Positions 7,703-63,853 are shown, counted from the first letter of the stretch. The stretch: 64,000 nucleotides of DNA from Desulfurivibrionaceae bacterium (GCA_030145275.1 JAQYVV010000001.1:275269-339268), one strand, 5' to 3'. Notes: a model not told the origin generated them from the sequence alone. Made by a program: numbers and translations.

Positions 7703-8872
7703 ATGAAAACTATCCCATACGGTCATCAAAACATAAACAAAGATGATATTCAGGCTGTTGTTGAGGTGCTGAAGTCTGATTTCATAACGCAAGGGCCGAT
7801 TGTCCCCGCATTTGAAGCTGCGGTGGGTAGCTACTGTGGCACACAACATGCGATAGCAGTCAATAGTGCCACCAGCGCCCTCCACATAGCATGCCTGGCC
7901 TTAGGCGTTGGCAAAGGCGATGTGGTCTGGACGACCCCGATTACATTCGTGGCTAGTGCCAATTGCGCCTTGTATTGTGGTGCACAGGTTGATTTTGTGG
8001 ATATCGATTCGCGCACCTATAATCTTAGCGTGGAGCGACTGACAGAAAAACTGGCTCAGGCAGAAAAAGTCGGAAAACTACCCAAGGTTGTGATTCTTGT
8101 GCATATGTGCGGACAACCCTGCGATATGGCAGCTATTCACGCACTTCGTCTGAGATACGGTTTCAAGATCATTGAAGATGCAGCCCACGCCATCGGCGGG
8201 CGCTACAAAGACGAACCTGTCGGCAACTGCCACTACAGTGACATCACCGTGTTCAGCTTTCATCCGGTCAAGATAATCACGGCGGGAGAAGGCGGTATGG
8301 CACTGACAAACGATGCGCAATTGGCAAAGCAGATGCGGTGTCTTCGAAGTCATGGACTCACCAGCGATGTGGAAGATATGCACCCACGGCCACCGAAAGA
8401 AATCTGGAACTACCAGCAAATAGGCTTGGGTTTTAACTACCGCATGACCGATATACTTGCTGCGTTAGGTTTGAGCCAAATGCAACGATTGGACGAATTC
8501 GTTTCCAAGAGGCACATAATTGCAAAACGATATGATCAGTTGCTCTTGAGCCTGCCAGTGGTTACGCCATATCAATATGCGGATAGCTATTCCAGCTTTC
8601 ATCTCTACGTTATACGTTTGCAACTTGATGAAATCAATATAAAGCAACGACAAGTATATGAAGCTCTTCGGGCAGCAGGTATTCATGTGAATCTGCACTA
8701 CATTCCGGTGTACCGCCAGCCGTATTATTCCAATATGGGTTTCGAGACAGGTTATTGCCCAGAAGCTGAACAATTTTATGCTGAAGCTATTAGCATACCG
8801 ATGTTTACGGTGCTAACTGAAGTACAGCAAGACCATGTTGTGACCGCTTTAAAGGAGGCAACCAGCTTATGA
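7703..8872 (+). CDS. pseC: UDP-4-amino-4,6-dideoxy-N-acetyl-beta-L-altrosamine transaminase, PseC
   Basis: A 389-residue PLP-dependent DegT/DnrJ/EryC1-type aminotransferase. The pyridoxal lysine is in FSFHPVKIITAGEGG at residue 190; the cofactor-binding D is in IIEDAAHAIGG. It aminates C4 of the PseB product using glutamate. It starts two bases after the pseB stop and overlaps pseF by four bases, so the genes are translationally coupled. Length and motif spacing match PseC. Confidence 0.93.
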   Translation: MKTIPYGHQNINKDDIQAVVEVLKSDFITQGPIVPAFEAAVGSYCGTQHAIAVNSATSALHIACLALGVGKGDVVWTTPITFVASANCALYCGAQVDFVDIDSRTYNLSVERLTEKLAQAEKVGKLPKVVILVHMCGQPCDMAAIHALRLRYGFKIIEDAAHAIGGRYKDEPVGNCHYSDITVFSFHPVKIITAGEGGMALTNDAQLAKQMRCLRSHGLTSDVEDMHPRPPKEIWNYQQIGLGFNYRMTDILAALGLSQMQRLDEFVSKRHIIAKRYDQLLLSLPVVTPYQYADSYSSFHLYVIRLQLDEINIKQRQVYEALRAAGIHVNLHYIPVYRQPYYSNMGFETGYCPEAEQFYAEAISIPMFTVLTEVQQDHVVTALKEATSL

Positions 8873-9564
8873 AAATTGCTGTAATTCCCGCTCGGGGCGG
8901 CAGCAAACGCATCCAGCGCAAAAACATTAAAATGTTTGCGGGCAAACCGATAATTGCCTGGTCCATTGAAGCAGCTTTAGGTAGTGGCTTATTTGATCGG
9001 ATTATTGTTTCTACCGATGATCAAGAAATCGCCACTGTAGCTGAAAAATACGGTGCAGAAATACCTTTTCTGCGCCCCACAGAGCTAGCTGATGACTTTA
9101 CTGGAACCAACAGCGTCGTGAAACATGTTATCAAATGGTTTCATGAAAACAATTTCCCTGTTGAATTTGCGTGCTGTATATACGCAACGGCTCCTTTCAT
9201 TCAAATAAACTACCTACGTCAAGGCCTTGAACTACTGATTGAAAGTGGAAAATCATTTGCCTTTTCAGTCTCAATATTCACATCTTCGGTCCAGCGTGCT
9301 CTTTCGATCAATAGTGAGGGCTTCATTGAACCACTTTATCCGGAATACATTCAAACCAGAACACAGGACCTCCAGGAAGCATATCATGATGCCGGACAAT
9401 TTTACTGGGGTCGTTCCGAGGCATTTTTGAATGATGTGGTCACTTTTTCACAAGCATCTATACCTATTATCCTTCCCAGTTATTTGGCACAGGATATAGA
9501 TACCCTTGAGGATTGGCATCGGGCCGAATTAATTTATAAGGCGATAAATAAGCAAGATTTTTAG
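8869..9564 (+). CDS. pseF: Pseudaminic acid cytidylyltransferase, PseF
   Basis: A 231-residue CMP-sugar synthetase with the nucleotide-binding N-terminus PARGGSKRIQRKNIKMFAGKP and the acylneuraminate cytidylyltransferase motifs STDDQEIA and DAGQFYWG. It activates pseudaminic acid with CTP. It overlaps the pseC stop (ATGA) and sits between pseC and the pse-type methylase, which supports PseF over NeuA or KdsB. A second, divergent cytidylyltransferase lies at 22119. Confidence 0.92.
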   Translation: MKIAVIPARGGSKRIQRKNIKMFAGKPIIAWSIEAALGSGLFDRIIVSTDDQEIATVAEKYGAEIPFLRPTELADDFTGTNSVVKHVIKWFHENNFPVEFACCIYATAPFIQINYLRQGLELLIESGKSFAFSVSIFTSSVQRALSINSEGFIEPLYPEYIQTRTQDLQEAYHDAGQFYWGRSEAFLNDVVTFSQASIPIILPSYLAQDIDTLEDWHRAELIYKAINKQDF

Positions 9565-10349: not shown

Positions 10350-10988
10350 ATGAATAAAAACAACGAATCAAATATTTGCATTTTGGATTATGGCAGTGGC
10401 AATACTAAGTCTGTGTTCAACCTACTAAGTACTTTGAGTGCCAGTGTTAAAATTTCAAATAGTGAAGAGGATATTATAAATGCAACCCATTTAGTGTTGC
10501 CGGGAGTTGGTGCATTTGGTGGGGCAATGGGGAAAATAAGGAGAAAGATTCCAGTCGACCTGCTCGAAAATGAGGTTTTATTTAAACAAAAACCATTCCT
10601 TGGAATATGCGTCGGGATGCAGGTTCTAGCCTCAAAAGGTTATGAACACGGCGAATGTGAGGGGCTAGGCTGGATCGCAGGCAAAACAACACGTCTGGAA
10701 ACAGATATAAACCCCTTGCCGCATATAGGTTGGAATAACTTGGAAATTATAAACCCTAGTCCTATTTTGGATGGTATTGACAACGAATATGATTTCTACT
10801 TCCTGCATAGTTATGCGTTCCGGCCTGAAGAAGAAAATTGCGTTGTTGCCAAAACTGAATATGGGGAGAATTTTGTCTCTGTAATTCAGCAAAAAAACAT
10901 TTTTGGCACCCAATTTCATCCGGAGAAGAGTCAAACCACTGGGAAATTACTAATTTACAATTTTTTGAAATTCAATGAAAAAGAATAG
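10350..10988 (+). CDS. hisH: HisH-like glutamine amidotransferase for sugar amidination
   Basis: A 212-residue class-I glutaminase resembling imidazole glycerol-phosphate synthase subunit HisH: YGSGNTKSV at the N-terminus, nucleophile cysteine in LGICVGMQ and the His/Glu of FHPEKS. No other histidine-pathway genes are nearby. In glycan loci such pairs (HisH2/HisF2 with WbpG in Pseudomonas aeruginosa O antigen) supply ammonia to a sugar amidotransferase. It overlaps the HisF-like gene by 14 bases and precedes the PseA-like gene, so that role is inferred here. Confidence 0.85.
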   Translation: MNKNNESNICILDYGSGNTKSVFNLLSTLSASVKISNSEEDIINATHLVLPGVGAFGGAMGKIRRKIPVDLLENEVLFKQKPFLGICVGMQVLASKGYEHGECEGLGWIAGKTTRLETDINPLPHIGWNNLEIINPSPILDGIDNEYDFYFLHSYAFRPEEENCVVAKTEYGENFVSVIQQKNIFGTQFHPEKSQTTGKLLIYNFLKFNEKE

Positions 10989-11784
10989 GTTGATTCCAGT
11001 TTTATTGCTTAAAGATGGTTGGTTAGTTCAGAGCAAAGGATTTTCCAGACATCAAAATCTCGGCAATCCGACTATTGCGGTAAAAAGGCTTAGTGAATGG
11101 GCAGCAGATGAATTGATTTATTTGGATATTTCTTCTGGAGAGGCAACTTATGATTTACGGCGGGATGATTTGAAACACCCCAATAGACACAATTTTCTCG
11201 ATATAATTGAGGATGTTTCAAAGTGCACCTTTATGCCAATAACTGTTGGAGGAAATATCCGATCATTAAACGATATTGAGGATCGACTGAAACGGGGAGC
11301 TGACAAAATATCAATTAATACAAAACCGCTTAATGATAAATCATTTATCACTGAAGCAGCTAAAGAATTCGGAGCACAATGCATCGTTGTATCAATAGAT
11401 ACAAAAGTTATTAATGAAAAGCATATCGTGATGAAACACGGTGGCAAGGAGGTAACAGATTTTACTGCCATTGAATGGGCGAAAATTTCCGAAGATATGG
11501 GGGCTGGCGAAATATTGCTGAATTCTGTTGATCGTGATGGTAAGCGAACTGGTTATGATATTCCATTGCTCACATTGTTATCCGACACCGTCAAAATCCC
11601 GGTTATTGCCCTCGGCGGAGTTGGTGAGTGGCAGGATTTTGAAGATGCGTTATCAGAAACTAATGTTGATGCAGTTGCTGCAGCAAACATATTTCATTAT
11701 ACGGACCAAAGCGTTTATTTAGCTAAAAAGCATTTGTTTGATAGAGGTTGCAACGTTAGACGGCCATTTATAACTAATTTTTAA
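10975..11784 (+). CDS. hisF: HisF-like ammonia-channel partner for sugar amidination
   Basis: A 269-residue TIM-barrel protein of the HisF type: RLIPVLLLKDGWLVQ at strand 1, TVGGNIRS, ILLNSVDRDGKRTGYD and IALGGVGEW at the phosphate-binding strands. In HisH/HisF complexes ammonia passes through the HisF barrel. Several positions differ from true HisF (LLLKDGWLV in place of LDV-type strand 1), which fits a paralog specialised for O-antigen or nonulosonate amidination. It is coupled to hisH by overlap and is followed 17 bases later by the amidotransferase. Confidence 0.83.
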   Translation: MKKNRLIPVLLLKDGWLVQSKGFSRHQNLGNPTIAVKRLSEWAADELIYLDISSGEATYDLRRDDLKHPNRHNFLDIIEDVSKCTFMPITVGGNIRSLNDIEDRLKRGADKISINTKPLNDKSFITEAAKEFGAQCIVVSIDTKVINEKHIVMKHGGKEVTDFTAIEWAKISEDMGAGEILLNSVDRDGKRTGYDIPLLTLLSDTVKIPVIALGGVGEWQDFEDALSETNVDAVAAANIFHYTDQSVYLAKKHLFDRGCNVRRPFITNF

Positions 11785-11801
11785 AAGGCGCAAAATATCC
11801 C

Positions 11802-13001
11802 ATGATCCATAAAATGACTTACTGCAAAAAATGTGTTTACCCCCAGATTTCAGTCAATTTATACGTTGATGATGATGGAGTGTGTTCCGCCTGTGAATCA
11901 GCTCAACAATTTGAAGAATTATCCCAAGATTTTTGGGATATAAGAAAAAGAAAATTTGAAAAAATAATTGAAGATACTTTGAGAAACAACACCTCTAATT
12001 ATGATTGCTTAATTCCAGTTAGTGGTGGCAAAGATAGCTATTATCAAGCGCATGTAATTGTAAAAGAATATGGCCTGAAACCACTTTTAATGACCTATCA
12101 TGGTAATAATTATCTGCCTGAGGGTGATTACAATCGTGACAGAATGAGGCACGTTTTTGATGCAGATCATATTGTTTACGGCCCAAGTATAGAGGTACTC
12201 AAAAAATTAAACCGCATTTGTTTTAAAAAAATGGGCGATATGAACTGGCAGAATCACTGCGGTATTTTTACCGCGCCTATTAAACTAGCAACCATGTTCA
12301 ATATACCATTAATGATTTGGGGAGAAACCGCTTGGGATATATCTGGCATGTTTGATCCTGACGATTTTGTTGAGTTCAGCGCTCGAGTGAGACATGAGCA
12401 TGGTTTACGCGGTTTTGAATGGTATGACCTGTTAGATGATCCTACAGACAATCTATCTGAAAAGGATTTGATTTGGGCAAAATACCCGACGGATGAGGAG
12501 ATACTCAGGGTTGGGGTCAAGGGGTTGTATATAGGTAATTTTTTCAAATGGGCTCCTAATGAAAATACAGAAAAGATGAAAGAACTTTATGGTTGGCAAC
12601 CAGCGGCTAAACCTTTCGAACGAACCTATCGCACCATGTCAAATCTGGATGACCGATATGAAAACGGCGTTCATGATTTGTTAAAGTTTATAAAATTTGG
12701 TTATGGTCGCGCCAGTGATCACGCTTCAAAAGATATCCGGGCTAATCTAATGTCCAGAGAAGATGGCATAAAGATGGTAAGGAAATATGACCATGTCGTC
12801 TCCAGTGATCTATATTATTGGCTTGATTATGTGGAGATGAGCGAGGATGAGTTTTGGCGAACCGCAGACACCTTCAGAGACTCCAGAGTCTGGTGGATAA
12901 AAGACGGTGAATGGTGGAAAGATAATATATGGGGTGAAGCATCACCGTACGGTAAAGTGTACTTACCAATTGAACAACAAAAAAATTACTTGATTGACTA
13001 G
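11802..13001 (+). CDS. N-acetyl sugar amidotransferase, PseA/WbpG type (copy 1)
   Basis: A 399-residue protein with an N-terminal cysteine cluster (CKKCVYPQ, CSACE) and the PP-loop ATP-binding motif PVSGGKDSY near residue 70. This is the PseA/WbpG family that converts an N-acetyl group to acetamidino using ATP and ammonia. An AAAAGGCG stretch lies about twelve bases before the ATG; the ATG at 11814 is a possible alternative. It directly follows the HisH/HisF-like pair. A second, clearly different paralog is encoded at 15288, which is unusual with a single ammonia-donor pair. Confidence 0.88.
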   Translation: MIHKMTYCKKCVYPQISVNLYVDDDGVCSACESAQQFEELSQDFWDIRKRKFEKIIEDTLRNNTSNYDCLIPVSGGKDSYYQAHVIVKEYGLKPLLMTYHGNNYLPEGDYNRDRMRHVFDADHIVYGPSIEVLKKLNRICFKKMGDMNWQNHCGIFTAPIKLATMFNIPLMIWGETAWDISGMFDPDDFVEFSARVRHEHGLRGFEWYDLLDDPTDNLSEKDLIWAKYPTDEEILRVGVKGLYIGNFFKWAPNENTEKMKELYGWQPAAKPFERTYRTMSNLDDRYENGVHDLLKFIKFGYGRASDHASKDIRANLMSREDGIKMVRKYDHVVSSDLYYWLDYVEMSEDEFWRTADTFRDSRVWWIKDGEWWKDNIWGEASPYGKVYLPIEQQKNYLID

Positions 13002-15287: not shown

Positions 15288-16388
15288 ATGTTCGAAATGT
15301 GCAAAAAATGCCTTATGCCAAATACTCGTCCGGAAACCCCCTTTGAAGGAGGGGGTTGTCAAGCTTGCAAAAATTTTGACACGAGAAAGCATGTGAACTG
15401 GGAAGAAAGATTAGATGAATTTAAAAGTATATGCAACCGGCACAAGCAAAATGACGGGAACTGGGACTGCTTCCTGCCCGTCAGTGGAGGTAAAGACAGT
15501 CATGCTATGGTTTACTGGGTAAAAGAGGTCATGGGAATGAATCCTTTATTAATCACTACAGGAGATCCATTTACCACAACGGAAGCAGGTTCAAAAAACT
15601 ATTTTAACTTAGGTAATACTTTTAATTGCGACCAGATTTTGGGTACAGTTAGTCCTGACTTGGCACGTCGGCTTATAAGAGCCGGATTTGAAGAATTCTT
15701 AGATCCATTACGTTTTATCGAACAAGTTTTAAACACAATCCCTTTTAAAATAGGTTCAAAGCTTGGGATTTCATTAAGTTTTAAAGGTGAATCCCCATAT
15801 ATTTATGGGGCTGTCAAAGAAGACAAGTCAGCATTGGAACAAATTCTTTATAGAACAACTCAATATGATGCAGATTACTGGATTAAACGCGGGGCAAAAA
15901 AAGAAGAATTAAACACCATTAATCCCCTCTCCGATGAAGAGTTAAGTAGTTTGAATCCGGAATGCTATTATATGAGCTATTTTGTGCCTTGGAGCAGCGT
16001 CTCAAACCGTAGGATAGCTCAAAGATATGGTTTTGTAGACATTACCCATGAATGGAAAAGAGAAGGATGTGTGGAGGATTTTGAGCAGATTGATTCTATG
16101 GCCTACTTGACACATCTTTGGCTAAAATATCCCAAATTCGGTTTCCAGAGAGCTTCGGATATTGTTTCTCGAAGAATTAGAGAGGGCAATCTCTCTATTG
16201 AAGAGGGGAAAAATCTTATTATGAAATACGACCACAAATTAGATCAGCTGGCGTTAAAAGATTTTAATGATTTTCTTGGATATTCTACAAAAGAATTCTG
16301 GGATGTCGTCGAAGGATTCTGGAACCCAAAAATATTCAGAAAAGATGGTATTGCCTGGGAAATGAAGGATTCACGCTTTCCTGTTTGA
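15288..16388 (+). CDS. N-acetyl sugar amidotransferase, PseA/WbpG type (copy 2)
   Basis: A 366-residue paralog of the gene at 11802. CKKCLMPNTRPE and CQACKNF form the N-terminal cysteine cluster, and LPVSGGKDSHAMVYW is the PP-loop ATP-binding motif. The two paralogs share layout but only scattered identity (different spacing after the PP loop, different C-termini), so this is not a recent duplication. It probably installs a second amidino group or works on a different substrate, sharing the HisH/HisF ammonia source. It is followed 49 bases later by the pseG fusion. Confidence 0.86.
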   Translation: MFEMCKKCLMPNTRPETPFEGGGCQACKNFDTRKHVNWEERLDEFKSICNRHKQNDGNWDCFLPVSGGKDSHAMVYWVKEVMGMNPLLITTGDPFTTTEAGSKNYFNLGNTFNCDQILGTVSPDLARRLIRAGFEEFLDPLRFIEQVLNTIPFKIGSKLGISLSFKGESPYIYGAVKEDKSALEQILYRTTQYDADYWIKRGAKKEELNTINPLSDEELSSLNPECYYMSYFVPWSSVSNRRIAQRYGFVDITHEWKREGCVEDFEQIDSMAYLTHLWLKYPKFGFQRASDIVSRRIREGNLSIEEGKNLIMKYDHKLDQLALKDFNDFLGYSTKEFWDVVEGFWNPKIFRKDGIAWEMKDSRFPV

Positions 16389-17983: not shown

Positions 17984-19051
17984 ATGACTGGTAATACTAT
18001 CCACCAAGTTCAGATAGGATCTAGAAGTATTGGCCCTGAATCTCCTCCTTTTGTAATAGCAGAGATGTCTGGAAACCATAATCAATCACTTGAGAGAGCA
18101 CTGGAGATTGTTGACGCTGCGGCAGCTTCTGGTGTACATGCTCTAAAGTTACAAACGTACACAGCCGAGACAATGACCCTTGATATTTCTGAGGGCGAAT
18201 TCTTGATAGAAGACTCAGGGAGTATCTGGCATGGCAGATCGCTTTATGAGCTCTACAATGAAGCTCATACTCCAAGAGAGTGGCATAAATCGATTTTCAG
18301 CCGTTGTAAAGATTTAGGTATGATCTGTTTTAGCACACCTTTTGATGCAACGGCTGTTGATTTTTTGGAAACCCTTGATGTCCCTTGCTACAAGATTGCT
18401 TCGTTTGAGAATACTGACCTACCGCTGATTCGTCGTGTGGCAGCTACCGGTAAACCATTGATCATTTCCACAGGAATGGCCACGGTTGACGAGCTAGATG
18501 AGACAGTGAGTGCTGCACGGGAAGCAGGTTGCAATAATCTAATTCTTCTTAAGTGCACCAGCACTTACCCAGCCATTGCAGAGAACAGCAACATCCTAAC
18601 TATTCCGCATCTGCGCGAGCTCTTTGATTGCGAAGTAGGCCTATCAGACCACACCATGGGCATTGGCGTATCGTTGGCTAGCGTTGCGCTAGGTGCCACT
18701 GTCATCGAGAAGCACTTTTCCCTCAACCGCGCTAATGGTGGTGTGGACAGTACTTTTTCAATGGAACCAGCCGAAATGTCCCAACTGGTGATGGAGACTG
18801 AACGAGTATGGCAAGCGCTTGGGAAAGTAAGTTATGGGCCGACTGCGGTCGAGGAAGAATCCCTTCAATTCCGCCGTTCATTGTACATAGTGCAAGACCT
18901 TAAGGCGGGGGAGGTGCTGTCGCGAGAGAATGTGCGCGCGATTCGTCCTGGGTTAGGGTTGCCGACTAAATATCTGGGCCAGATATTGGGAAAAATATTG
19001 AAGCAGGATGTAAAACGTGGCACAGCGTTGGGATGGGAATTGTTGGCATAA
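17984..19051 (+). CDS. pseI: Pseudaminic acid synthase, PseI
   Basis: A 355-residue NeuB-family enzyme. The TIM barrel opens with VIAEMSGNHNQSLERALEIV and ALKLQTYTAETMTLD; metal and PEP binding is around GLSDHTMG and VIEKHF. The C-terminal SAF/antifreeze-like domain begins at RRSLYIVQDLKAGEVL. It condenses the 6-deoxy-altrose sugar with phosphoenolpyruvate to give pseudaminic acid. EMSGNHNQ is typical of PseI. It begins one base after the pseG fusion and ends the densely packed part of the operon. Confidence 0.93.
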   Translation: MTGNTIHQVQIGSRSIGPESPPFVIAEMSGNHNQSLERALEIVDAAAASGVHALKLQTYTAETMTLDISEGEFLIEDSGSIWHGRSLYELYNEAHTPREWHKSIFSRCKDLGMICFSTPFDATAVDFLETLDVPCYKIASFENTDLPLIRRVAATGKPLIISTGMATVDELDETVSAAREAGCNNLILLKCTSTYPAIAENSNILTIPHLRELFDCEVGLSDHTMGIGVSLASVALGATVIEKHFSLNRANGGVDSTFSMEPAEMSQLVMETERVWQALGKVSYGPTAVEEESLQFRRSLYIVQDLKAGEVLSRENVRAIRPGLGLPTKYLGQILGKILKQDVKRGTALGWELLA

Positions 19052-22118: not shown

Positions 22119-22805
22119 ATGAGAAAAATTACGGCGTTACTTCCGATGAAGGCTCATTCCGAGCGGGTACCTGAAAAAAACATCAAGCTGTTTGCCGGTA
22201 AACCATTATTCCAAAGAATTGCAGAAGTTTTGGAAACCTCGGTCCACATTGACCGCATCTTCATTAACACCGACAGCGAGGAGATTGCCAAGAATGCCGG
22301 CAAACACTTCTCAAAAGTCGAGATTGTCGTACGTCCGCCTGAGCTCAGAGGAGATTTCGTCCCCATGAATGATATTATCAGGCACGATATCCAGATTTCT
22401 AAATCTGAACATTTTCTCCAAACCCACAGCACCAACCCTCTCTTGGGTTTGAAAACCATAGAAACAGCCATTGAAAAATATTTTAACGGACTGTCCACAT
22501 ATGACTCACTGTTTTCGGTCACCAAAGTACAAAATCGTTTTTACTGGGAGTCTGGGGAACCTATCAACCACAACCCAGGAGAGTTGTTACGGACCCAGGA
22601 CCTTGAACCGATCTATGAAGAAAATTCCAATATCTATCTGTTTTCAGCCGCCTCCTTTGCTGCGTCCGGAAATAACAGAATAGGACTAAGACCGCAGATG
22701 TTTAGCATAGATAAATTGGAGTCTATTGATATCGATGACGAAGCGGACTGGCATTTTGCCGAAAGCCTCTATCATTGGATGCAAGGGGCAGCAAAGGGGC
22801 AATAA
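22119..22805 (+). CDS. Acylneuraminate cytidylyltransferase family protein (second CMP-sugar synthetase)
   Basis: A 228-residue NeuA/PseF-family enzyme: LLPMKAHSERVPEKNIKLFAGKP binds CTP, and INTDSEEIA and ENSNIYLF occupy the usual positions. It is clearly different from PseF at 8869: MKAHSERVPEKN replaces ARGGSKRIQRKN. GAGGGATAGAGGAA precedes the ATG. It activates a 2-keto-3-deoxy sugar acid with CMP. No second PEP-dependent synthase accompanies it. An HpcH-type pyruvate aldolase lies 1.4 kb downstream, which raises the question of how its substrate is made. Confidence 0.85.
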   Translation: MRKITALLPMKAHSERVPEKNIKLFAGKPLFQRIAEVLETSVHIDRIFINTDSEEIAKNAGKHFSKVEIVVRPPELRGDFVPMNDIIRHDIQISKSEHFLQTHSTNPLLGLKTIETAIEKYFNGLSTYDSLFSVTKVQNRFYWESGEPINHNPGELLRTQDLEPIYEENSNIYLFSAASFAASGNNRIGLRPQMFSIDKLESIDIDDEADWHFAESLYHWMQGAAKGQ

Positions 22806-22808
22806 CCC

Positions 22809-23996
22809 GTGCGAATCGAGCCTGAACATATCGTATCACGCATGAGAACGTTGCTAGCCAGGATAATAATACAATTATCCAGCTCCCTCTTTCTTCTGCT
22901 TAAAAAGACGGATCTGTTCTTTGTTAAGAATGATGATGTCCTAATCTGCTCTCCATCCATCACTCCGAAGCAACTCAACGAGATAAAGAAACGCCTTTCC
23001 TTCTATGCTCCGGCCTTGTCTGCACGGCAGCTGTTAATCTCAAACCGGCTGACCTTCAGGTACATTTTCAGTGATATGGTGATTTTGCTGTTCTCGGGCC
23101 AGGAATCGAATTCCTGTTGGATTTTTCTGCTTTTGCGTATGAGAAAATGGACCTATGACATCGACTTTCGCACCAACCACATGGACGGCTGGCGATGGTG
23201 CGCCTTGGCGCAGGATTTTTCCCCGCCACCCCCTTCGGCTCTCCAGCGCTTTCATGCGTGTGTGTCTGATTTAAAGAAGCTCGCGTTGCAAAAATGCTAC
23301 ATTTTCGGCACCGGACCCTCTCTGGAAGAGGCGGGCGGGCGGGACTGGTCAGATGGTTATCGGGTGGTCTGCAACACCATTGTACGAGATAAAGCCCTGT
23401 GGAACCATATCAAGCCCCATTTTATTGTCGCAGGCGACGCGATCTACCATTTCGGCCATACAGAATTTGCCAGACGCTTTCGTGCCGATCTGATAAAACG
23501 ACTCCAGGAAACAGATACATACTTTGTTTATCCTGCCCAATTTCATGCTATTGTTGGACGGGATCTGCACCAATTCGCCAACCGTTTGATCCCCATACCT
23601 ATCGGGTCCCACCACCGGATGCATATTGATCTGACCAAGACCTTCCAACTGCCGCAGCTCGGTAACGTCCTGCGCCTGCTGCTGCTGCCTCTGGGATGCA
23701 CCCTTTCAAAAAACGTCTATTTGTGGGGCTTTGACGGCAGGGCGCCGGATGACAAGCTTTTCTGGAGCAATTCCGACAAACACAGCTATCCAGAACTCAT
23801 GCCTACCCTCTGTGAAGCCCATCCTGCGTTTTTTAGCTATTATGTGCCAAAAGCAAAGCCTGACAGCTACGTGGCATACTTCCATGGAGACGCTTTAGAC
23901 AAGTCTATGTTAGATGCCGAGCATGATGGTTATGCATTCATTATGATGCATAAAAGTTGGACACAAACTCTGCAAAAAAGATTCACTGAAGAGTGA
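22809..23996 (+). CDS. Unknown protein with GTGPSLEE motif (DUF115/GT42-like)
   Basis: A 395-residue protein of unknown function. YIFGTGPSLEEAGG near residue 165, followed by VVCNTIVRDKALWNHIKPHFIV, resembles the N-terminal half of the DUF115/GT42 group, to which bacterial sialyltransferases belong (GNGPSL..). Two hydrophobic stretches occur before residue 105. The start is GTG at 22809, three bases after the cytidylyltransferase stop, so the two are coupled. It is a good candidate for the glycosyltransferase that uses the CMP-sugar made by its neighbour. A catalytic histidine cannot be assigned from sequence alone. Confidence 0.5.
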   Translation: MRIEPEHIVSRMRTLLARIIIQLSSSLFLLLKKTDLFFVKNDDVLICSPSITPKQLNEIKKRLSFYAPALSARQLLISNRLTFRYIFSDMVILLFSGQESNSCWIFLLLRMRKWTYDIDFRTNHMDGWRWCALAQDFSPPPPSALQRFHACVSDLKKLALQKCYIFGTGPSLEEAGGRDWSDGYRVVCNTIVRDKALWNHIKPHFIVAGDAIYHFGHTEFARRFRADLIKRLQETDTYFVYPAQFHAIVGRDLHQFANRLIPIPIGSHHRMHIDLTKTFQLPQLGNVLRLLLLPLGCTLSKNVYLWGFDGRAPDDKLFWSNSDKHSYPELMPTLCEAHPAFFSYYVPKAKPDSYVAYFHGDALDKSMLDAEHDGYAFIMMHKSWTQTLQKRFTEE

Positions 23997-24212
23997 GGCA
24001 TGCAACTAATTGACCATATCACTCACCTGAATGGACTGTATGGCATCCTCATCAAAAACATGTAATTACACTTCACTTACATAATGTTATAGTCTTTGAG
24101 GTGTGATTTACTGTAGACTTTTACGATGATGAAAAAAATATTTTGACATTATTGGGGAGCATGATAATACCACGTTTACCGAGGATAACCCGAACGGAGC
24201 GAAGAACAGCAA

Positions 24213-24971
24213 ATGACACTGAAACAAAGACTCAGCAAGCGGCAGGTAACCATCGGTTCCTGGATAACCATAGGGAACCCCATTGTCGCAGAAATAATGG
24301 CAAGATCAGGTTATGACTGGCTCACCATCGACATGGAACACAGCGCCATCACCCTTGACATAGCGCAGGAACTTATCCGGATCATAGAACTCTGCGGCGT
24401 CTCCCCCCTGGTGAGAGTCGGACATAATGATCCGTTACTCATCAAAAGAGTCATGGACTGCGGTGCTCACGGCGTCATTGTACCGATGGTTAACTCTGCC
24501 GAAGAGGCCCAACAGGCAGTGGCCTCAGTCAGATATCCACCGCAGGGCTTTCGCGGAGTCGGATTGGCACGGGCCCAGAGTTACGGCACCAACTTTGAAA
24601 GATACAAAGCCTGGAATAAAGAGGAGAGCATTGTCATTGTCCAGGTTGAACATATCAAGGCGGTGGAAAATCTGGAAGAGATTATTTCCCAGGATGGGGT
24701 CGATGGATTTATCATCGGACCATACGACCTTTCCGGATCCTTGGGGGTTCCGGGACAGTTTGATCATCCTGATGTAAAGGCCGCCCTGGATCATGTTATG
24801 CAGGTTAGCAAGCAACAAGACGCCCTGGCCGGATTCCATGTGATTCCTGCCGATCCGCACTCTTGTAAAGAAAAGCTGGATCAGGGATTCAAATTTATTA
24901 GCCACAGCCTCGATATTCTGCTTCTGGGGGATCAGTGCAGAAACGCAGTCAGCACTATTCGCAAAGAGTAG
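24213..24971 (+). CDS. HpcH/HpaI-family class II pyruvate aldolase
   Basis: A 252-residue TIM barrel with family motifs WLTIDMEHSA, PLVRVGHNDPLLIKRVMDCGA (catalytic arginine region), YPPQGFRGVGLARAQSYG and FIIGPYDLSGSLG. The metal-dependent enzymes of this family make or cleave 4-hydroxy-2-keto acids from pyruvate and an aldehyde. In a catabolic operon this would be a breakdown enzyme. Here it sits among CMP-sugar and sugar-modifying genes, so an anabolic aldol step giving a 3-deoxy-2-keto sugar acid is possible. A 216-base gap precedes it. Confidence 0.87.
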   Translation: MTLKQRLSKRQVTIGSWITIGNPIVAEIMARSGYDWLTIDMEHSAITLDIAQELIRIIELCGVSPLVRVGHNDPLLIKRVMDCGAHGVIVPMVNSAEEAQQAVASVRYPPQGFRGVGLARAQSYGTNFERYKAWNKEESIVIVQVEHIKAVENLEEIISQDGVDGFIIGPYDLSGSLGVPGQFDHPDVKAALDHVMQVSKQQDALAGFHVIPADPHSCKEKLDQGFKFISHSLDILLLGDQCRNAVSTIRKE

Positions 24972-24985
24972 TAATTTAACCTTAT

Positions 24986-25930
24986 ATGTTAGAAATAATG
25001 ACATCCATCCTGATTACCACATCATCATTCGGCAAACATGATCAGAGCTTAATTGACGATCTGACCAACAAAGGTATACAGATCACAGCCAACCCCTTCG
25101 GCCGCAAATTGACTGAGCCGGAGGTAACGGAGTTGATCACCCGACATCAGCCCCTTGGCATTATTGCAGGCGTTGAACCTTTGAGCCGCGCCGTTCTACA
25201 GCAGGCCATTAATCTGAAGATAATCTCGCGTTGTGGTATCGGCATGGATTCGGTGGACCTCAAAGCCGCCAAGGAATTAGGCATCAAGGTGACTAATACC
25301 CCGGATGGCCCGACGATCCCAGTGGCTGAACTGACTGTCGGTATGATTTTGGCGTTGCTGCGACGTATTCACCTTGTTGACGGCGCCATCCGGCGTGGGG
25401 AATGGGAGAGACCTATGGGCGGTTTGCTGTATGGCAAAACCGTCGGCATTATCGGCTGTGGCAGAATCGGTTCATATGTAGCAAAACTGCTGGCCAGTTT
25501 TGGCTGCAAGATCCTGGGATGTGATTTGTTCTGTAGCGAAAATGAATGCTATGAACCCACGGAGATTGATGAGTTATTGGCCGCAGCGGATATCGTAACC
25601 ATCCATATCCCCTACTCGGAGGAAAATCATCATTTTATCAATCGTGATCGGCTCAACATCATGAAGAAAGGAACGATCCTTGTCAACGCGGCCAGGGGTG
25701 GCCTGGTCAACGAAAAGGCGCTTTATGAGGCCCTTGAAAAAGGCCGATTGGCAGGGGCGGCCCTGGACAGCTTTGAGGAGGAACCCTATAAAGGTCCCCT
25801 GCGGAACCTAAATAATGTCCTGCTCACTTCTCATATCGGCTCCTATGCTAAAGAAGCCAGAGTTATGATGGAACGGCAAGCCGCAGAAAACTTGCTTCGA
25901 GAATTGAAAAAATTAGGGGCGATAAAATGA
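24986..25930 (+). CDS. D-isomer-specific 2-hydroxyacid dehydrogenase (SerA-like)
   Basis: A 314-residue NAD-dependent dehydrogenase: GKTVGIIGCGRIGSYVAKLL binds NAD, NAARGGLVNEKALYEAL holds the substrate region, and the C-terminal LLTSHIGSYA provides the catalytic histidine. It lacks the ACT/ASB domains of the housekeeping SerA at 46935, so serine synthesis is unlikely. It begins 14 bases after the aldolase and overlaps the next gene by four bases. It probably oxidises or reduces a sugar-derived hydroxy acid in the same pathway. The ATG at 24998 is an alternative start. Confidence 0.87.
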   Translation: MLEIMTSILITTSSFGKHDQSLIDDLTNKGIQITANPFGRKLTEPEVTELITRHQPLGIIAGVEPLSRAVLQQAINLKIISRCGIGMDSVDLKAAKELGIKVTNTPDGPTIPVAELTVGMILALLRRIHLVDGAIRRGEWERPMGGLLYGKTVGIIGCGRIGSYVAKLLASFGCKILGCDLFCSENECYEPTEIDELLAAADIVTIHIPYSEENHHFINRDRLNIMKKGTILVNAARGGLVNEKALYEALEKGRLAGAALDSFEEEPYKGPLRNLNNVLLTSHIGSYAKEARVMMERQAAENLLRELKKLGAIK

Positions 25931-26805
25931 AAGTTGTTGTATTTGGCGGGGCCGGATTTATCGGTAGCCATGTGGCAGATGTCTTGAGCGAAACGGGTCA
26001 CGATGTCACCATTTTTGATATCAAGCCATCACCATATCTCCAGAAGAACCAAACTATGCTGGTTGGAGATATCATGGATCAAAAACAGGTGGAAGAAATA
26101 GTTTCTGACAAATCCTTGGTCTACCATTATGCCGGCATCGCCGATATAGATGAGTGTGCCCTGCGGCCGGTGGATACAGTCAGATACAATATCCTCGGCA
26201 CAGTCCATATCCTTGAAGCCTGCCGCAAGGCTAGCGTAGAACGGTTTGTCTTTGCCAGTTCCGCATACGTTTACAGTGACGCTGGCTATTTCTACCGCAC
26301 CAGCAAGCAGGCTTGTGAGTCACTGATTGAAAATTATTGGGAATTATATGGACTTAAATATACCTGCCTGCGATATGGCTCGTTATATGGAGAAAGAGCC
26401 GATGATCATAACAGTATTTATCGGTTGTTAAAACAGGCCTTGCGAGATGGGAAACTCACCTATCATGGGACGGGAGAGGAAATTCGGGAATATATTCATG
26501 TGCGTGATGCGGCAGAGAACAGCGTCAAGATTCTTGCCAAGGAGTATGAGAACCAAAACATTATCTTGACTGGGCCTGAAACCATGAGTTACCGGAGATT
26601 ACTTGAAATGATCGATGAGATTCTCGGGGGAAGGATCGATATAGAAATATTGCCCACTAAACGTAAGGCCCATTACAAGATTACCCCATACAATTTTAGC
26701 CCGAAACTGGGACGAAAATTGGTTAACAATCCCGGCATTGATATGGGACAGGGAATGTTGCTTTGTATGGCCGAGATTTTTGAGAATATAAAAAAGGGGT
26801 CTTAA
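25927..26805 (+). CDS. NAD-dependent epimerase/dehydratase (extended SDR)
   Basis: A 292-residue extended SDR. GGAGFIGSHVADVL binds NAD; FASSAYVYSDAGYFYRTSKQ contains the SSAYVY and YRTSK (YxxxK) catalytic elements. It modifies an activated sugar by epimerisation or dehydration; the substrate is not deducible. It overlaps the dehydrogenase stop by four bases and ends the tight triple with the aldolase. Confidence 0.87.
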   Translation: MKVVVFGGAGFIGSHVADVLSETGHDVTIFDIKPSPYLQKNQTMLVGDIMDQKQVEEIVSDKSLVYHYAGIADIDECALRPVDTVRYNILGTVHILEACRKASVERFVFASSAYVYSDAGYFYRTSKQACESLIENYWELYGLKYTCLRYGSLYGERADDHNSIYRLLKQALRDGKLTYHGTGEEIREYIHVRDAAENSVKILAKEYENQNIILTGPETMSYRRLLEMIDEILGGRIDIEILPTKRKAHYKITPYNFSPKLGRKLVNNPGIDMGQGMLLCMAEIFENIKKGS

Positions 26806-26935
26806 CTAATTAGTGGAACAGAACTGCCGCTATTGATAGTAATCGGTTATTATTTATAGGCTACCCTATAGTTTTCCTTTTCTGGGTTTTTAATGCGTCC
26901 ACTCAGTGGGCGGTTGTTTGTGATGGTGTTTAGTT

Positions 26936-27571
26936 ATGACGATGAAAGCGGTTTTTTTTGATTTTGATGGGGTTATTCTGGATTCAGTTAATATTAAGAC
27001 AGCAGCTTTTGCTGCCATGTTTCGATCCTATGGGCCAGAGATTGAACAGCAAGTGACTGAGTACCATATTAATCATGGTGGCGTATCCCGATTTGATAAG
27101 TTCCACTATTATTATACCCAACTACTAGATAAGCCATTGTCGTCCATGGAACTTGAACGGTTGTGCCGGGAATTTTCAGCAATTGTCTTTAATCAGGTAG
27201 TACAAGCTCCTTTTATTAAAGGGGCGATGGCAACCCTTAAAGATCTTAAAAAATGCAATATCCCGGCTTTTGTAGTCTCTGGAACTCCAGATGCAGAGAT
27301 CAGGTCAATCGTGCAACTAAAAAACTTAGAATCTTTTTTCGTTGAAGTTCATGGTTCCCCTAAATCTAAGGAGGAGATAACTGCTGAACTCCTACGTCGA
27401 AAAAAATTTACCGCGAAAGAATGTCTGTTTGTCGGAGATTCAATGTCTGATTATTTGGCATCTACAATAAATAAAATGCCATTTCTCGGAATTGTGCCAG
27501 ATGGCGGGACCTCACCGTTTCCCTCCCATGTTACTATTGTACCAATTGTGCAACTGGCCATTAACATATGA
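26936..27571 (+). CDS. HAD-superfamily phosphatase
   Basis: A 211-residue HAD hydrolase with motif I FFDFDGVILDSV (nucleophile and general acid aspartates), motif II VVSGTPD and motif IV FVGDSMSDY. In nonulosonate and Kdo pathways a HAD phosphatase removes the phosphate left after aldol condensation, which fits a position after the aldolase and epimerase. The ATG at 26942 is equally likely as start. It overlaps the next gene by four bases. Confidence 0.87.
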   Translation: MTMKAVFFDFDGVILDSVNIKTAAFAAMFRSYGPEIEQQVTEYHINHGGVSRFDKFHYYYTQLLDKPLSSMELERLCREFSAIVFNQVVQAPFIKGAMATLKDLKKCNIPAFVVSGTPDAEIRSIVQLKNLESFFVEVHGSPKSKEEITAELLRRKKFTAKECLFVGDSMSDYLASTINKMPFLGIVPDGGTSPFPSHVTIVPIVQLAINI

Positions 27572-28497
27572 AAAAAATGATTCAAATCAATAAAATATGG
27601 GATTTCTGCAGAAATATAAGCCGAATCCCACTTAAAATGGACCAACTGCAAAAAGCTGTTGGGCGTATTGAATATCGTCAACTTCAAGCAACAGGATCCA
27701 AAGATATTCAAAATTATGAGTTTCAAGTTTTTTCACAATGGCAAGATGATGGTATAATTCAATATTTGATTCATAACACTCCTATACAAAATAAAATTTT
27801 TATCGAATTTGGTGTACAGGATTATACTGAATCAAATACTCGTTTTCTGCTGCAGAACAACAACTGGTCAGGCCTTGTCATTGATGGTTCGCAGGACAAT
27901 ATCAAATATATTAAAAATGACCCAATTTATTGGCGATATAATCTAAAAGCGGAATGTGCCTTCATTGATCGCGGCAACATAAACTCACTCATTTTAAACA
28001 GCGGCATTTCTGGGGATATTGGTCTTCTATCAATTGATATTGACGGTAATGACTACTGGGTTTGGGAGGCGATAGACTGTATCAGTCCACGTATTGTGAT
28101 CTGTGAATACAATAGCCTTTTTGGCCCTGTTTCCCAAGTTACAGTCCCATATGATAATAATTTTCAAAGGACGAAAGCCCATTTATCCAATCTCTATTTT
28201 GGAGCTTCAATTTCAGCCCTAAATTCTTTGGCCGAGCGGAAAGGTTATTCCCTCATCGCCGTAAACAGTGCTGGGAATAATGCCTTCTTTTTGAGAAATG
28301 ACCTCCTGGGTGATGACACAATCCCGCAATCCCCTGCAAATGTATACATTAAGGCACAATTCCGGGAATCTCGAGATAACAATGGAACTTTGACATTTAT
28401 TGATTTTGATGAAGGTCTTGATTTAATAAAAGATTTGATAGTTACTGATTTATCTTTAGATAGAGAAATTAAAGTTAAAGAGATTAAACCTTATTGA
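27568..28497 (+). CDS. FkbM-like putative methyltransferase
   Basis: A 309-residue protein. NKIFIEFGVQDYTESNTRFLLQ, then LVIDGSQDN and IGLLSIDIDGNDYWVWEAI match the layout of FkbM-type SAM methyltransferases in glycan clusters, although a canonical GxGxG is not evident (EFGVQDYTESN in its place). It overlaps the phosphatase by four bases and is the last intact gene before the insertion sequence, whose 5-bp duplication lies 53 bases beyond its stop. The substrate is unknown. Confidence 0.65.
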   Translation: MKKMIQINKIWDFCRNISRIPLKMDQLQKAVGRIEYRQLQATGSKDIQNYEFQVFSQWQDDGIIQYLIHNTPIQNKIFIEFGVQDYTESNTRFLLQNNNWSGLVIDGSQDNIKYIKNDPIYWRYNLKAECAFIDRGNINSLILNSGISGDIGLLSIDIDGNDYWVWEAIDCISPRIVICEYNSLFGPVSQVTVPYDNNFQRTKAHLSNLYFGASISALNSLAERKGYSLIAVNSAGNNAFFLRNDLLGDDTIPQSPANVYIKAQFRESRDNNGTLTFIDFDEGLDLIKDLIVTDLSLDREIKVKEIKPY

Positions 28498-28554: not shown

Positions 28555-30277
28555 AAGGGTGTTGAAAAGTAACCGGCCAAAGGCTGGAAACAAATATCCA
28601 ATCGGCCAAATAGCCGTTTAAAGTTTTTGTTTTTTTGTCACTGCTAGCGATTAATATTACTAACTTGCGGGTGTGTTTTTGCACTTTTAAGCACCCTAAT
28701 TTGAGGGCAGCGCTATTTTACAGCAAGTTATTTACGCCAGCATATACATATACAAAAAATCACAATTGTAGTCTGTGTTTTATCTTGAAACTATAAAATT
28801 GTCAGTTTTTTATCGGTCAAGCAGCATTAGCAAAGAGAGTCTGTTGTTGCCTTTGATTGGTCGATTTCTTTTTCCTTGAACCGGCCATTTTTATCAGTAT
28901 TACAGCTATCGAGCTTAACGTGCACCTGGCCATGGTTGCACGCTGGCTCCGTACTCTTACAGTCTCAAGACCTGTTTGTTTTTTCAACAGGTTAAAAGGT
29001 CTTTCACAATTTTTGCGGATATCATGAGCCTGTTGGATCATTTCTGTTGCAAAGGGTATCCGCTGAAAAAGGCCTCTATCCATAGGGATAAAGCGGTATT
29101 GAGGACATGTCTGGGAGCAGGCACATTCTCCTGTTGTCGCACCACATTTATACTCGTGCTCCTGGCCTTTGTACCCGACATGCTGCATGGGGATGGTACA
29201 TTCATCATGGCAAAAAACTGCTCCAGTATCGCCATTGACATTTTCAGGCAAGGCCACCTTTGCAGACGGTGGTGTCGTAACAATGGTGCCAGTCTTTCTG
29301 TAAAGAGAACCATCTTTGTCATGGTAGGCTTCGTCAGCGGTAATGAGCTTTACGTCAATCCCCATTGCCTGGGCTAAACTAACCAGGAATGGAAGAAAAT
29401 GACTGTCATGATGATTGGCAGGGGCCAAGAGGGAAACAATAGGGTAGCTCTGTCCTGTTTGGGCATTGATAGCAGTAAGAGTATGGAGACGGTAACCAAT
29501 GACATATGCGGATTTATCCCGCTTATTACCATGCTTACCGCAATCACAGTCGAGGTCGTTGTAGATCCGTATCTTTTTACCTTTAATCGTGATAGTGGCC
29601 AAGGGAACCCTACAGTCATTGGCCAGTTCCGTTGAGTCAACTGCATGAAGAACACAATCGCCAAGAAGTCCTGACTGGTTAAAATGATGCAGGATATAGA
29701 CAAGCAAGTTGACCTGCTGCGAGAAAGAAAGATTGGATCTGAATTTACTCAGTTGACTATGATCGATCTTGGTCTTTTTATGCAATGCCATCGTAGGATA
29801 TAATACGGTTGATTATTCCGTCATCGATTAATCTATCAACAAAGGCAAGCTCCTCATCTTTGATATAGATGGAGGAACGATTATAAGTGCTGAACTTTAT
29901 GGTTTTATTGTTATTCGACCATGTCGATATATCGAGCCATTTTATCAAGTTTGATGATCCCAGCCGGAAGTTGTGCTTCTATGCCAAGAAGATCTTCTTT
30001 GGGGGCCTCGACGACTTGGGTGAAATCATATTCGGCTACTGTTTCAGCCAATATCTTCTTGGCTATATCTCTCTTTTGTTTTCTTGCCAATCTTTTCCAG
30101 TTTGGAAACTGTTTTTTTAGTTGTTTTCGTATGCTTAACTTGATACTTTTGTGGTGCATCACAGCCTCTTTTTTTGATGTTTATTCTTTTGATAGGGAAT
30201 CAACACCATCATAGAGGCTTTTTTTGTTTTAACTAAACGTTTTTATTGACTAAAACACTATTTACTTCAACACCTTT
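28555..30277 (-). mobile_element. Decayed 1.7-kb DDE-type insertion sequence
   Basis: The ends are short inverted repeats (AAGGGTGTTGAA at 28555 and its partial complement TTCAACACCTTT ending at 30277), bordered by TACAT on both sides (28550-28554 and 30278-30282), a probable 5-bp target duplication. The transposase reads leftward but is split over three frames. The element lies between an FkbM-like gene and a glycosyltransferase inside the glycan locus. The 244 bases left of the transposase hold only element sequence. Size and a single large ORF fit the IS1182/IS5-like DDE groups; the exact family is not certain. Confidence 0.75.
28817..30162 (-). pseudogene. DDE transposase, broken by two frameshifts
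   Basis: Three pieces in three frames form one transposase. The N-terminus is at 30162-29911 (MMHHKSIKLSIRKQLKK...), a short middle piece (FSTYNRSSIYIKDEELAFVD) lies in another frame at about 29910-29800, and the catalytic part is at 29791-28817. The last piece has HAVDSTELANDC (first Asp), LITADEAYHD (second Asp) and CERPFNLLKKQTGLE (Glu region), with a cysteine-rich insert (CGATTGECACSQTC). With two frame changes the enzyme is inactive unless both are sequencing errors. Confidence 0.8.
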
Positions 30278-61711: not shown

Positions 61712-63853
61712 TTGTGTGGCGCCTTGAATTATAAAATATTATCTTATCTTAGATCTTTTTACTCCAACAGACTATTCATCCCTTTAGTTCTTTTTCTTAT
61801 TATGCTCGCCGGATTTCTTGTCCGCTTTGATGACCTGAAATCCTGGGAAGAAAGACCAAACCATACCTTTTTTCAGGGCAAACCTCTTCTTACCACCTTT
61901 GATGGCTATTTCTATCTAAATCTTTCCCGAGATCTTCTCCGGGGCGAGTATGATACTGTTGACGAGAAGCAGGTTGTGCCTGCCGGTCGACCCAGACCAT
62001 ATCCTCCCCCCCTTCTCTCAGTTTTAGGTGCGGTTACCACTAAAATAACAGGCGCATCTCTTGACATGGTTGGAACTGTGTTACCTGCAGTGTTAGGGGT
62101 GTTATTGGCTTTGCCCCTCTACCTTCTGGGAAACTTTTTTGGTGGCAGGGCCATGGGGGTCACAGCGGCTCTATCCAGTGTCTTTGTTCCATATTATGTC
62201 TATCGCAGTAACGTTGGTTGGTATGATACCGACTGTATGAATGTGACCTTTGCCACCCTTATTGTCTATTTTACTCTGCAGTTTGCAATATGTGCCGGGC
62301 GGACTAGATATTTATATGCTGTAGCCTCCCTTTGCAGTTATTTGCTTTTTCTCTGGTGGTGGGATCAGGCTTTTGCGGTGGTCAGCGTGATTTTCTTTGC
62401 TACCTCATTGGTCGCCTTGCTCTTTTTTTATCGTCCAGGGAAAAAAGAGGGATATATCTTTTATGGAGCAGTGGCTGGACTTATTTTTCTTCTGCTTTTT
62501 TGGCAGGGCCTTGAACTTCCCCAAAAAATATACAGCACTATTGTCGGGAAATTTGACTATATTTACACCTCCAAGCAAATTGCAGGTATTTTCCCAAACC
62601 AGGCCATTACGGTGTCAGAGCAGGTGCGGCCAGGATTTAATGAAATTGTCTCAAAATCAACGGGTAGTATGCCTATATTCTTTACTGCCTGCGTTGGACT
62701 CTTGTATCTCTTTTATCGCAGGCCCAAAGATAGTCTTTTCCTTATAGTACCACTTTTGCTGGCCTCCCTATCTTTTCTTTTTGCCAAACGGTTTCTCATC
62801 TTTTTAAATCCAATCATAGCCCTTGGCCTGGGTAGTTTTATTGGCGCAATTTGGTATTTACGAAAAAGATATATAATCGCTGCTTATATTGCACCTGTTC
62901 TTGCACTCGTTCTTGTCTGGCCTAACTTGTCAGATAATTTGGCAAGGGTGCACTGGCCTAAAGAACCAGCGGCAATTGTGGCAGGAATGGCCGCTGCGGA
63001 AAAACATACTCCTGATGATGCAGTTGTCTGGGCCTGGTGGGATCATGGTTATAATATGAGATATTGGTCTGATCGCGGCGTCATAGCGGATGGAAGTTAT
63101 CATAGCGGCGAAATTTCCATGTATAATGCCTTGCCCTTGACGGTAAACAGTGAACAGCTGTCGGCAAATTTCATGCAATTTTATATTAATCGCGGCTCAA
63201 AAGGGATGGGGCAAGTATATCGGGCCTTTGACAACCAGCATGGTGAGGCCATGCAATTTCTGAAGAATGTATTAGCTGCTGGGCCGGAAAAGGCAGAAGA
63301 AATAATGAAAGATACCGGGGTTTTTCAAGATATTGAACGTTCTGATTCTGCTCTGGTAAATTCTGTTGAGTTTTATTTCCCCCCAAATAAAAAGCCTGTT
63401 TACCTTTTCCTGGATTGGCGTCTGACAAAAACCTCATATTGGTGGTTCTGGTTTGGCAGTTGGGATTTTGATAAACGAGACGGGATTAATCCTCGTTTTG
63501 AAATTTTTCAAGATGTCGGTATTCGAAAAAATCAGATATTAGGGAGGAGCAGTAGGGGCGGGTTTCGGGCTGATCTTAATACAGGAATGGTGAATTTAGG
63601 AAAGAATAGTATCCCAATGGCAAGTATCTCTTTTTTTGAACCTGATGGAAAGGTGAAGGTGGCAAAGTATAAGAGCAAGGGGGCTGGGCTGGAGGTTTCA
63701 TCAGCAACCCGATCTGCAGCTTTGCTTGATTACGCCATAGGAGAATCGGTCTTTAATCGCCTTTATTTAAGGCAACAATATGATCATAAGTATTTTGATC
63801 TTGTTGCTGAGGATTTTCCAGCCTGGCAGCTATGGAAAGTAAAGGCTGATTAG
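61712..63853 (+). CDS. pglB: STT3/PglB-type oligosaccharyltransferase
   Basis: A 713-residue membrane enzyme with about 11-13 transmembrane helices in residues 1-430 and a C-terminal periplasmic domain. GWYDTDCMNVTFA fits the DxD-like metal/lipid-pyrophosphate motif (DTDMxNV in PglB), and WAWWDHGYNMRYWSDR is the WWDxG acceptor-sequon motif, with His in place of Tyr. It would transfer a lipid-linked glycan onto asparagines of secreted proteins. The start is TTG; other starts within the first ten codons are possible. It ends at TAG inside the octamer beside the last element. Confidence 0.85.
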   Translation: MCGALNYKILSYLRSFYSNRLFIPLVLFLIMLAGFLVRFDDLKSWEERPNHTFFQGKPLLTTFDGYFYLNLSRDLLRGEYDTVDEKQVVPAGRPRPYPPPLLSVLGAVTTKITGASLDMVGTVLPAVLGVLLALPLYLLGNFFGGRAMGVTAALSSVFVPYYVYRSNVGWYDTDCMNVTFATLIVYFTLQFAICAGRTRYLYAVASLCSYLLFLWWWDQAFAVVSVIFFATSLVALLFFYRPGKKEGYIFYGAVAGLIFLLLFWQGLELPQKIYSTIVGKFDYIYTSKQIAGIFPNQAITVSEQVRPGFNEIVSKSTGSMPIFFTACVGLLYLFYRRPKDSLFLIVPLLLASLSFLFAKRFLIFLNPIIALGLGSFIGAIWYLRKRYIIAAYIAPVLALVLVWPNLSDNLARVHWPKEPAAIVAGMAAAEKHTPDDAVVWAWWDHGYNMRYWSDRGVIADGSYHSGEISMYNALPLTVNSEQLSANFMQFYINRGSKGMGQVYRAFDNQHGEAMQFLKNVLAAGPEKAEEIMKDTGVFQDIERSDSALVNSVEFYFPPNKKPVYLFLDWRLTKTSYWWFWFGSWDFDKRDGINPRFEIFQDVGIRKNQILGRSSRGGFRADLNTGMVNLGKNSIPMASISFFEPDGKVKVAKYKSKGAGLEVSSATRSAALLDYAIGESVFNRLYLRQQYDHKYFDLVAEDFPAWQLWKVKAD

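Follow-up and report, generated by a model that had tools for sequence, protein, structure and literature searches.

The five-gene module described here lies in a 64,000-nt stretch of DNA from a Desulfurivibrionaceae bacterium (GCA_030145275.1, JAQYVV010000001.1:275269-339268), hereafter the window, whose genome (G000) is 84.4% complete. It encodes a cytidylyltransferase (CMPS), a pyruvate aldolase (ALD), a 2-hydroxyacid dehydrogenase (HADH), an epimerase-like protein (EPI) and a phosphatase (HAD), and probably constitutes a phosphoenolpyruvate (PEP)-independent route to a CMP-activated 2-ulosonic acid of the class of 3-deoxy-D-manno-oct-2-ulosonic acid (Kdo) and the sialic acids. In the proposed pathway EPI and HAD, together with HADH where it is present, would convert a phosphorylated sugar into an aldehyde, to which ALD, as a class II enzyme, would add pyruvate or possibly hydroxypyruvate to give a 4-hydroxy-2-oxo acid. 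After cyclisation the resulting ulosonic acid would be joined to CMP by CMPS, or in other lineages by a KdsB-like relative, a coupling that would draw the reversible aldol reaction forward, and a glycosyltransferase would then transfer the sugar to a surface glycan. Direct evidence covers the linkage of the genes, the orphan CMPS, an aldolase clade of its own and the altered motifs of linked KdsB-like enzymes, from which the reactions, their sequence and the identity of the sugar are inferred.

Results

CMPS (22119..22805, plus strand) is a NeuA/PseF-related cytidylyltransferase (PF02348, CTP_transf_3, 79 bits) that forms its own subfamily, scoring 91.6 bits against the PseF model, under the curated cut-off of 205.7, and recognizable in the alignment by the motifs PM[KR]xxSxRxPxKN, LQ[TS]HxTNPL, EENS and DID. 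The HpcH/HpaI class II 2-oxoacid aldolase ALD (24213..24971, plus strand; PF03328, 130 bits, cut-off 25) falls under the equivalog cut-offs for HpaI (204.7 against 368.8 bits), GarL (194.7 against 406.75) and RhmA (171.1 against 441), and its alignment retains the EH, R, E and D (GPYD) positions conserved in class II enzymes. Fourteen bases downstream, HADH (24986..25930, plus strand; PF02826/PF00389) is a D-2-hydroxyacid dehydrogenase resembling phosphoglycerate dehydrogenase (PGDH) without the regulatory domain; it scores 248.9 bits against the PGDH model (cut-off 454) and its best PDB match is 1wwk. EPI (25927..26805, plus strand; PF01370, 154 bits), which overlaps HADH by 4 bases, is an extended short-chain dehydrogenase/reductase (SDR; ‘epimerase’) and the hallmark of the module. 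Its relatives form a coherent subfamily marked by AGIAD, YVYxxxGxFYRxSKQ, LRYGSLYG and HYxxTPYxFxPK, present in 29 of 395 genomes of the window's phylum. HAD (26936..27571, plus strand; PF13419, 68 bits) is a HAD-IA phosphatase. Both the ORF check and the profile searches of the window proteins agree with the preliminary description of this region in gene order, spacings and families, including the 14-base gap and the 4-base overlap.

A complete pseudaminic acid set lies directly upstream of the module with its own synthase PseI (17984..19051, plus strand; TIGR03586, 497.8 bits, cut-off 340) and the partner of PseI, the first cytidylyltransferase PseF (8869..9564, plus strand; genome scan match G000:C62:284143). 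Genome-wide, G000 contains one NeuB-type synthase, this PseI, and one KdsA, for four clear cytidylyltransferases: two KdsB-like enzymes, PseF and CMPS. Because only these two synthases are present for four cytidylyltransferases, CMPS is an orphan by count, and the earlier claim that it has no NeuB/KdsA-type synthase of its own is borne out in the available genome sequence, where it is without a dedicated PEP-dependent synthase. A weak NeuB match on contig C14 was rejected as a second NeuB, being the KdsA gene itself. The second KdsB-like gene of G000 (C44, about 95764, L193) has the canonical HxGxYA motif and sits in another cluster.

Relatives of the module were sought with ALD in the class and with EPI in the phylum, and the ORFs of the neighbourhoods taken were labelled by phmmer matches to queries from the window or from locus L043, a labelling that may miss distant homologues. 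In the 43 loci of the EPI-centred survey, about half of which come from one genus (g133) sampled for carrying EPI, HAD was found nearby in 41, a CTP_transf_3 cytidylyltransferase likewise in 41, ALD in 34 and HADH in 19. As an internal control, 73 loci around less closely related aldolases (below 195 bits) yielded no cytidylyltransferase. The order of the window, CMPS-ALD-HADH-EPI-HAD, is found again within the phylum in L035 and, with insertions, in L153 (CMPS, MptE-like, ALD, methyltransferase, HADH, EPI, PF04199 cyclase, HAD). CMPS, ALD, EPI and HAD occur with an HADH match in each of L156, L157, L160 and L168, and a KdsB-like gene takes the place of CMPS in L043, L158, L164, L169 and L171. 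An alphaproteobacterial plasmid from Acuticoccus carries a compact ALD-CMPS-HADH-HAD-EPI island between malate synthase/racemase genes and repAB, its proteins being 34-48% identical to their window counterparts. A search for EPI on viral contigs found none.

The gene set, for which the preliminary description had suggested a genome survey, thus recurs in L035, L153, the Acuticoccus plasmid and the 43 surveyed loci, and its co-occurrence is far beyond chance. Islands of this kind are gene-dense and mosaic, which might suggest that polysaccharide and catabolic genes merely came to lie together by chance, but the survey contradicts such an origin: the module spans many genera of the window's phylum, Omnitrophota and an alphaproteobacterial plasmid, and with the empty control this leaves chance barely credible. 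A PF04199 cyclase-family protein adjoins EPI, HADH or HAD in modules L153, L159, L161, L168 and L170, and may provide a lactonase-like step.

A maximum-likelihood analysis of 110 aldolases, labelled by linkage to a cytidylyltransferase, places the 42 linked ones and a single unlinked row in one group (fork 94/77), and the linked label changes twice compared with a shuffled mean of 33.7; some rows are long-branched, and single placements (L035, L195) are unsure. This clade mixes aldolases that have CMPS partners (window, L153, L156, L157, L160, L201) with others that have KdsB-like partners (L158, L169, L171, L045, L202). Two cytidylyltransferase families therefore partner the same aldolase lineage, as expected from a common product class, and both linkage and phylogeny make a purely catabolic role for ALD unlikely. 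The linked KdsB-like proteins are themselves altered: the HxGxYA and EKLEQLR motifs are lost in 37 of 37 linked rows and kept in four KdsB outside the modules. The His/Tyr segment of the KdsB motif, which we take from KpsU structures to line the sugar site, is not kept, and for this reason the linked enzymes probably act on something other than Kdo.

Further evidence comes from genomes in which one or other of the PEP-dependent synthases is itself missing. G327, which is 100% complete, carries the module, no NeuB, one KdsA and a separate KdsB besides CMPS. Within genus g133, which is probably Desulfovibrio, 49 of 50 good genomes carry EPI, whereas 40 of 50 lack KdsA; WaaA (PF04413) was missing in 71 of 71 genomes, LpxC was not found in any of the 16 tested, and canonical KdsD exceeded its cut-off in only one of 16 (G597, also KdsA-positive). 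Nearly all g133 neighbourhoods taken read ALD-EPI-KdsB-like-hexapeptide acyltransferase-HAD, in that order, the exceptions being L190, which meets the contig end before ALD, and L192, which is an additional EPI locus in G675 with another layout. A g133 genome of 1.4 Mb (G690) still has the operon.

These genomes bear directly on the possibility that CMPS activates Kdo or pseudaminic acid made by PEP-dependent synthases elsewhere, the aldolase group making or degrading something else. In its favour, NeuB, KdsA or both are encoded in most genomes with the module, and CMPS resembles PseF and NeuA. However, G327 is without NeuB and already has a KdsB for its KdsA, KdsA is missing from most g133 genomes, the module travels on a plasmid as an island complete in itself and the linked KdsB-like partner has lost the canonical KdsB motifs, so that an external synthase appears improbable as the source and NeuB/KdsA products need not feed the module cytidylyltransferase, a point that the preliminary description had left to be checked. 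In a wider form of the aldolase-based reading, the pyruvate-aldolase route would have replaced the PEP-dependent Kdo route for a core envelope ulosonic sugar across g133, with the window representing a surface-glycan variant spread across phyla and plasmids; this we advance tentatively, as a possibility that falls short of even. In the lipopolysaccharide (LPS) of D. desulfuricans a Kdo-type sugar was at first reported to be lacking, but later chemical work is reported to have found one that reacts with thiobarbiturate (PMC3354558). LPS is thus reported for this species despite the missing WaaA, LpxC and mostly KdsA of g133 (G441 and relatives), and the assembly of lipid A and core in this genus may be unorthodox.

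As a possible transferase the preliminary description had suggested the GxGPSL protein (22809..23996, plus strand), which remains a weak candidate: no family was assigned at 1e-3, a partial MptE-like match at 160-211 scored 18.2 bits, under the cut-off of 34.6, its single-sequence structure model was too poor for use (predicted local distance difference test 38), and no homologues were found in the surveyed loci. In favour of the suggestion, L153 has an MptE-like protein at the GxGPSL position and L192 a CST-I/MptE-like fusion near CMPS, and these neighbours mildly favour a role as CMP-sugar transferase, which remains a guess. LIC12162-/LIC13510-family ‘surface carbohydrate’ proteins adjoin ALD/KdsB-like genes in L036, L037, L038, L046 and L170 and are likewise candidates for such a role.

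Outside the conserved set, a candidate FkbM-like methyltransferase (27568..28497, plus strand; no family at 1e-3, PF05050 E 0.045) overlaps HAD by 4 bases, and FkbM-type proteins are found in the L037 and L038 modules too. A scan for promoters and terminators gave results at chance level. Just downstream of the module a minus-strand insertion sequence-type transposase was recognized by eye (28817-29791), as was, by eye only, a large STT3/PglB oligosaccharyltransferase-like membrane protein at 61712-63853. The pseudaminic acid region (10350-13001 and 15288-16388) contains, besides a HisH/HisF-like pair, two amidotransferases of PseA-like type, of which the second was tested and belongs to the WbuX family; together the genes suggest an acetamidino-type modification.

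Discussion

Several points weigh against an aldolase-based route to a CMP-ulosonate. The genome of the window reaches only 84% completeness, aldol addition of pyruvate is a reversible reaction and, to our knowledge, those HpcH/HpaI enzymes whose function has been established act in catabolism. The g133 operons, which hold the ALD, EPI, KdsB-like and HAD core, are without HADH, and five genomes (G524, G494, G628, G559 and G296) have EPI and HAD without an aldolase of this type. Because the latter keep both genes, EPI and HAD are not exclusively partners of the aldolase. The core of the idea put forward in the preliminary description nevertheless fits the linkage, the orphan CMPS and the aldolase clade; the need for HADH is not supported, given its absence from the g133 operons.

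The five aldolase-less genomes have a divergent cytidylyltransferase, with radical SAM (S-adenosylmethionine) and aminotransferase genes nearby in several, and could be taken to indicate that the end product joined to CMP is no ulosonic acid and stems instead from an EPI/HADH/HAD intermediate as some other acidic or amino compound. Against this, use of a NeuA-like CMPS or a KdsB-like enzyme goes with an aldolase encoded within the locus, within the same island or at another place in the genome: ALD is found on the same contig or island in G372 and G307, a few kb from CMPS or directly before the KdsB-like gene, and at the other EPI locus in G675, which softens the contradiction that such loci had seemed to pose. 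Among genomes with EPI, ALD is missing only from those whose cytidylyltransferase belongs to another type, the sole exception being G642, with a NeuA-/KdsB-like enzyme and no aldolase found, where the contig ends at the operon. A non-ulosonic product thus seems quite improbable. A divergent cytidylyltransferase occurs with radical SAM (SPASM) genes, and in most cases a HisC-like aminotransferase, in L161, L162, L170, L172, L201 and L204, a set that possibly serves another undescribed CMP-activated sugar.

The role of HADH bears on a further alternative, in which the same scaffold uses another donor: HADH and HAD would supply hydroxypyruvate, from which ALD would form an ulosonic acid that bears a 3-hydroxy group (non-deoxy), a counterpart of D-glycero-D-talo-oct-2-ulosonic acid (Ko) made independently of oxygen. 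HADH resembles PGDH and glycerate/glyoxylate reductases, and EPI-less loci such as L031, L034, L045 and L046 have it close to ALD and KdsB-like genes. In these loci and in L036 a Gfo/Idh oxidoreductase accompanies ALD, a KdsB-like gene and HADH, and an SDR is present in some as well. At the usual HADH position L162 has an Ldh_2-type dehydrogenase, a hint that the reaction here oxidizes or reduces a 2-hydroxy/2-oxo acid. This aldolase family takes pyruvate and hydroxypyruvate with polyhydroxylated aldehydes, and its class II HpcH-type members accept hydroxypyruvate as nucleophile (PMC7610986). The retention of ALD, EPI, KdsB-like gene and HAD but not HADH in g133 argues for the contrary, and we regard a hydroxypyruvate donor as rather unlikely.

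Should the aldolase-based route to a CMP-ulosonate be correct, sugars of the sialic-acid/Kdo type would have, in this dedicated and mobile alternative, a new biosynthetic logic; the route would account for CMP-sugar synthetases that appear as orphans and might help to show what takes the place of Kdo where KdsA and WaaA are missing. The module is a short enzyme set and as such directly testable. Searches of the open-access literature brought up no account of this gene set, a negative that is not proof of absence.

Comparison with known systems begins with the putative transferase, whose likeness to GT42 sialyltransferases and MptE-like proteins (DUF115, Maf) consists, at the level of sequence, of the GxGPSL motif and the 18-bit partial match and lies below every cut-off. 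All CMP-ulosonic acid pathways known to us use a PEP-dependent synthase. With the Kdo pathway (KdsD-KdsA-KdsC-KdsB) the module would have in common a PF02348 enzyme that links a 2-ulosonic acid to CMP, as well as a phosphatase step, but the C-C bond is predicted to be formed by a metal-dependent pyruvate aldolase instead of PEP-dependent KdsA, which is not in the module; an SDR and a 2-hydroxyacid dehydrogenase are additional, CMPS is NeuA/PseF-like and canonical KdsB motifs occur in none of the 37 linked KdsB-like rows. The nonulosonic acid pathways (NeuB/PseI/LegI with NeuA/PseF/LegF) likewise have a NeuA/PseF-like cytidylyltransferase, whereas CMPS is of a distinct subfamily and NeuB is neither in the module nor anywhere in the complete G327. 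The module therefore stands apart from the Kdo and NeuB pathways, whose defining synthases were tested for and not found, and would represent a variant of CMP-ulosonate biosynthesis outside both. Its aldolase shares family, catalytic positions and likely class II metal-dependent pyruvate chemistry with HpaI, GarL and RhmA/YfaU, but while those are catabolic the module enzymes adjoin CMP-sugar synthetases and form a clade of their own.

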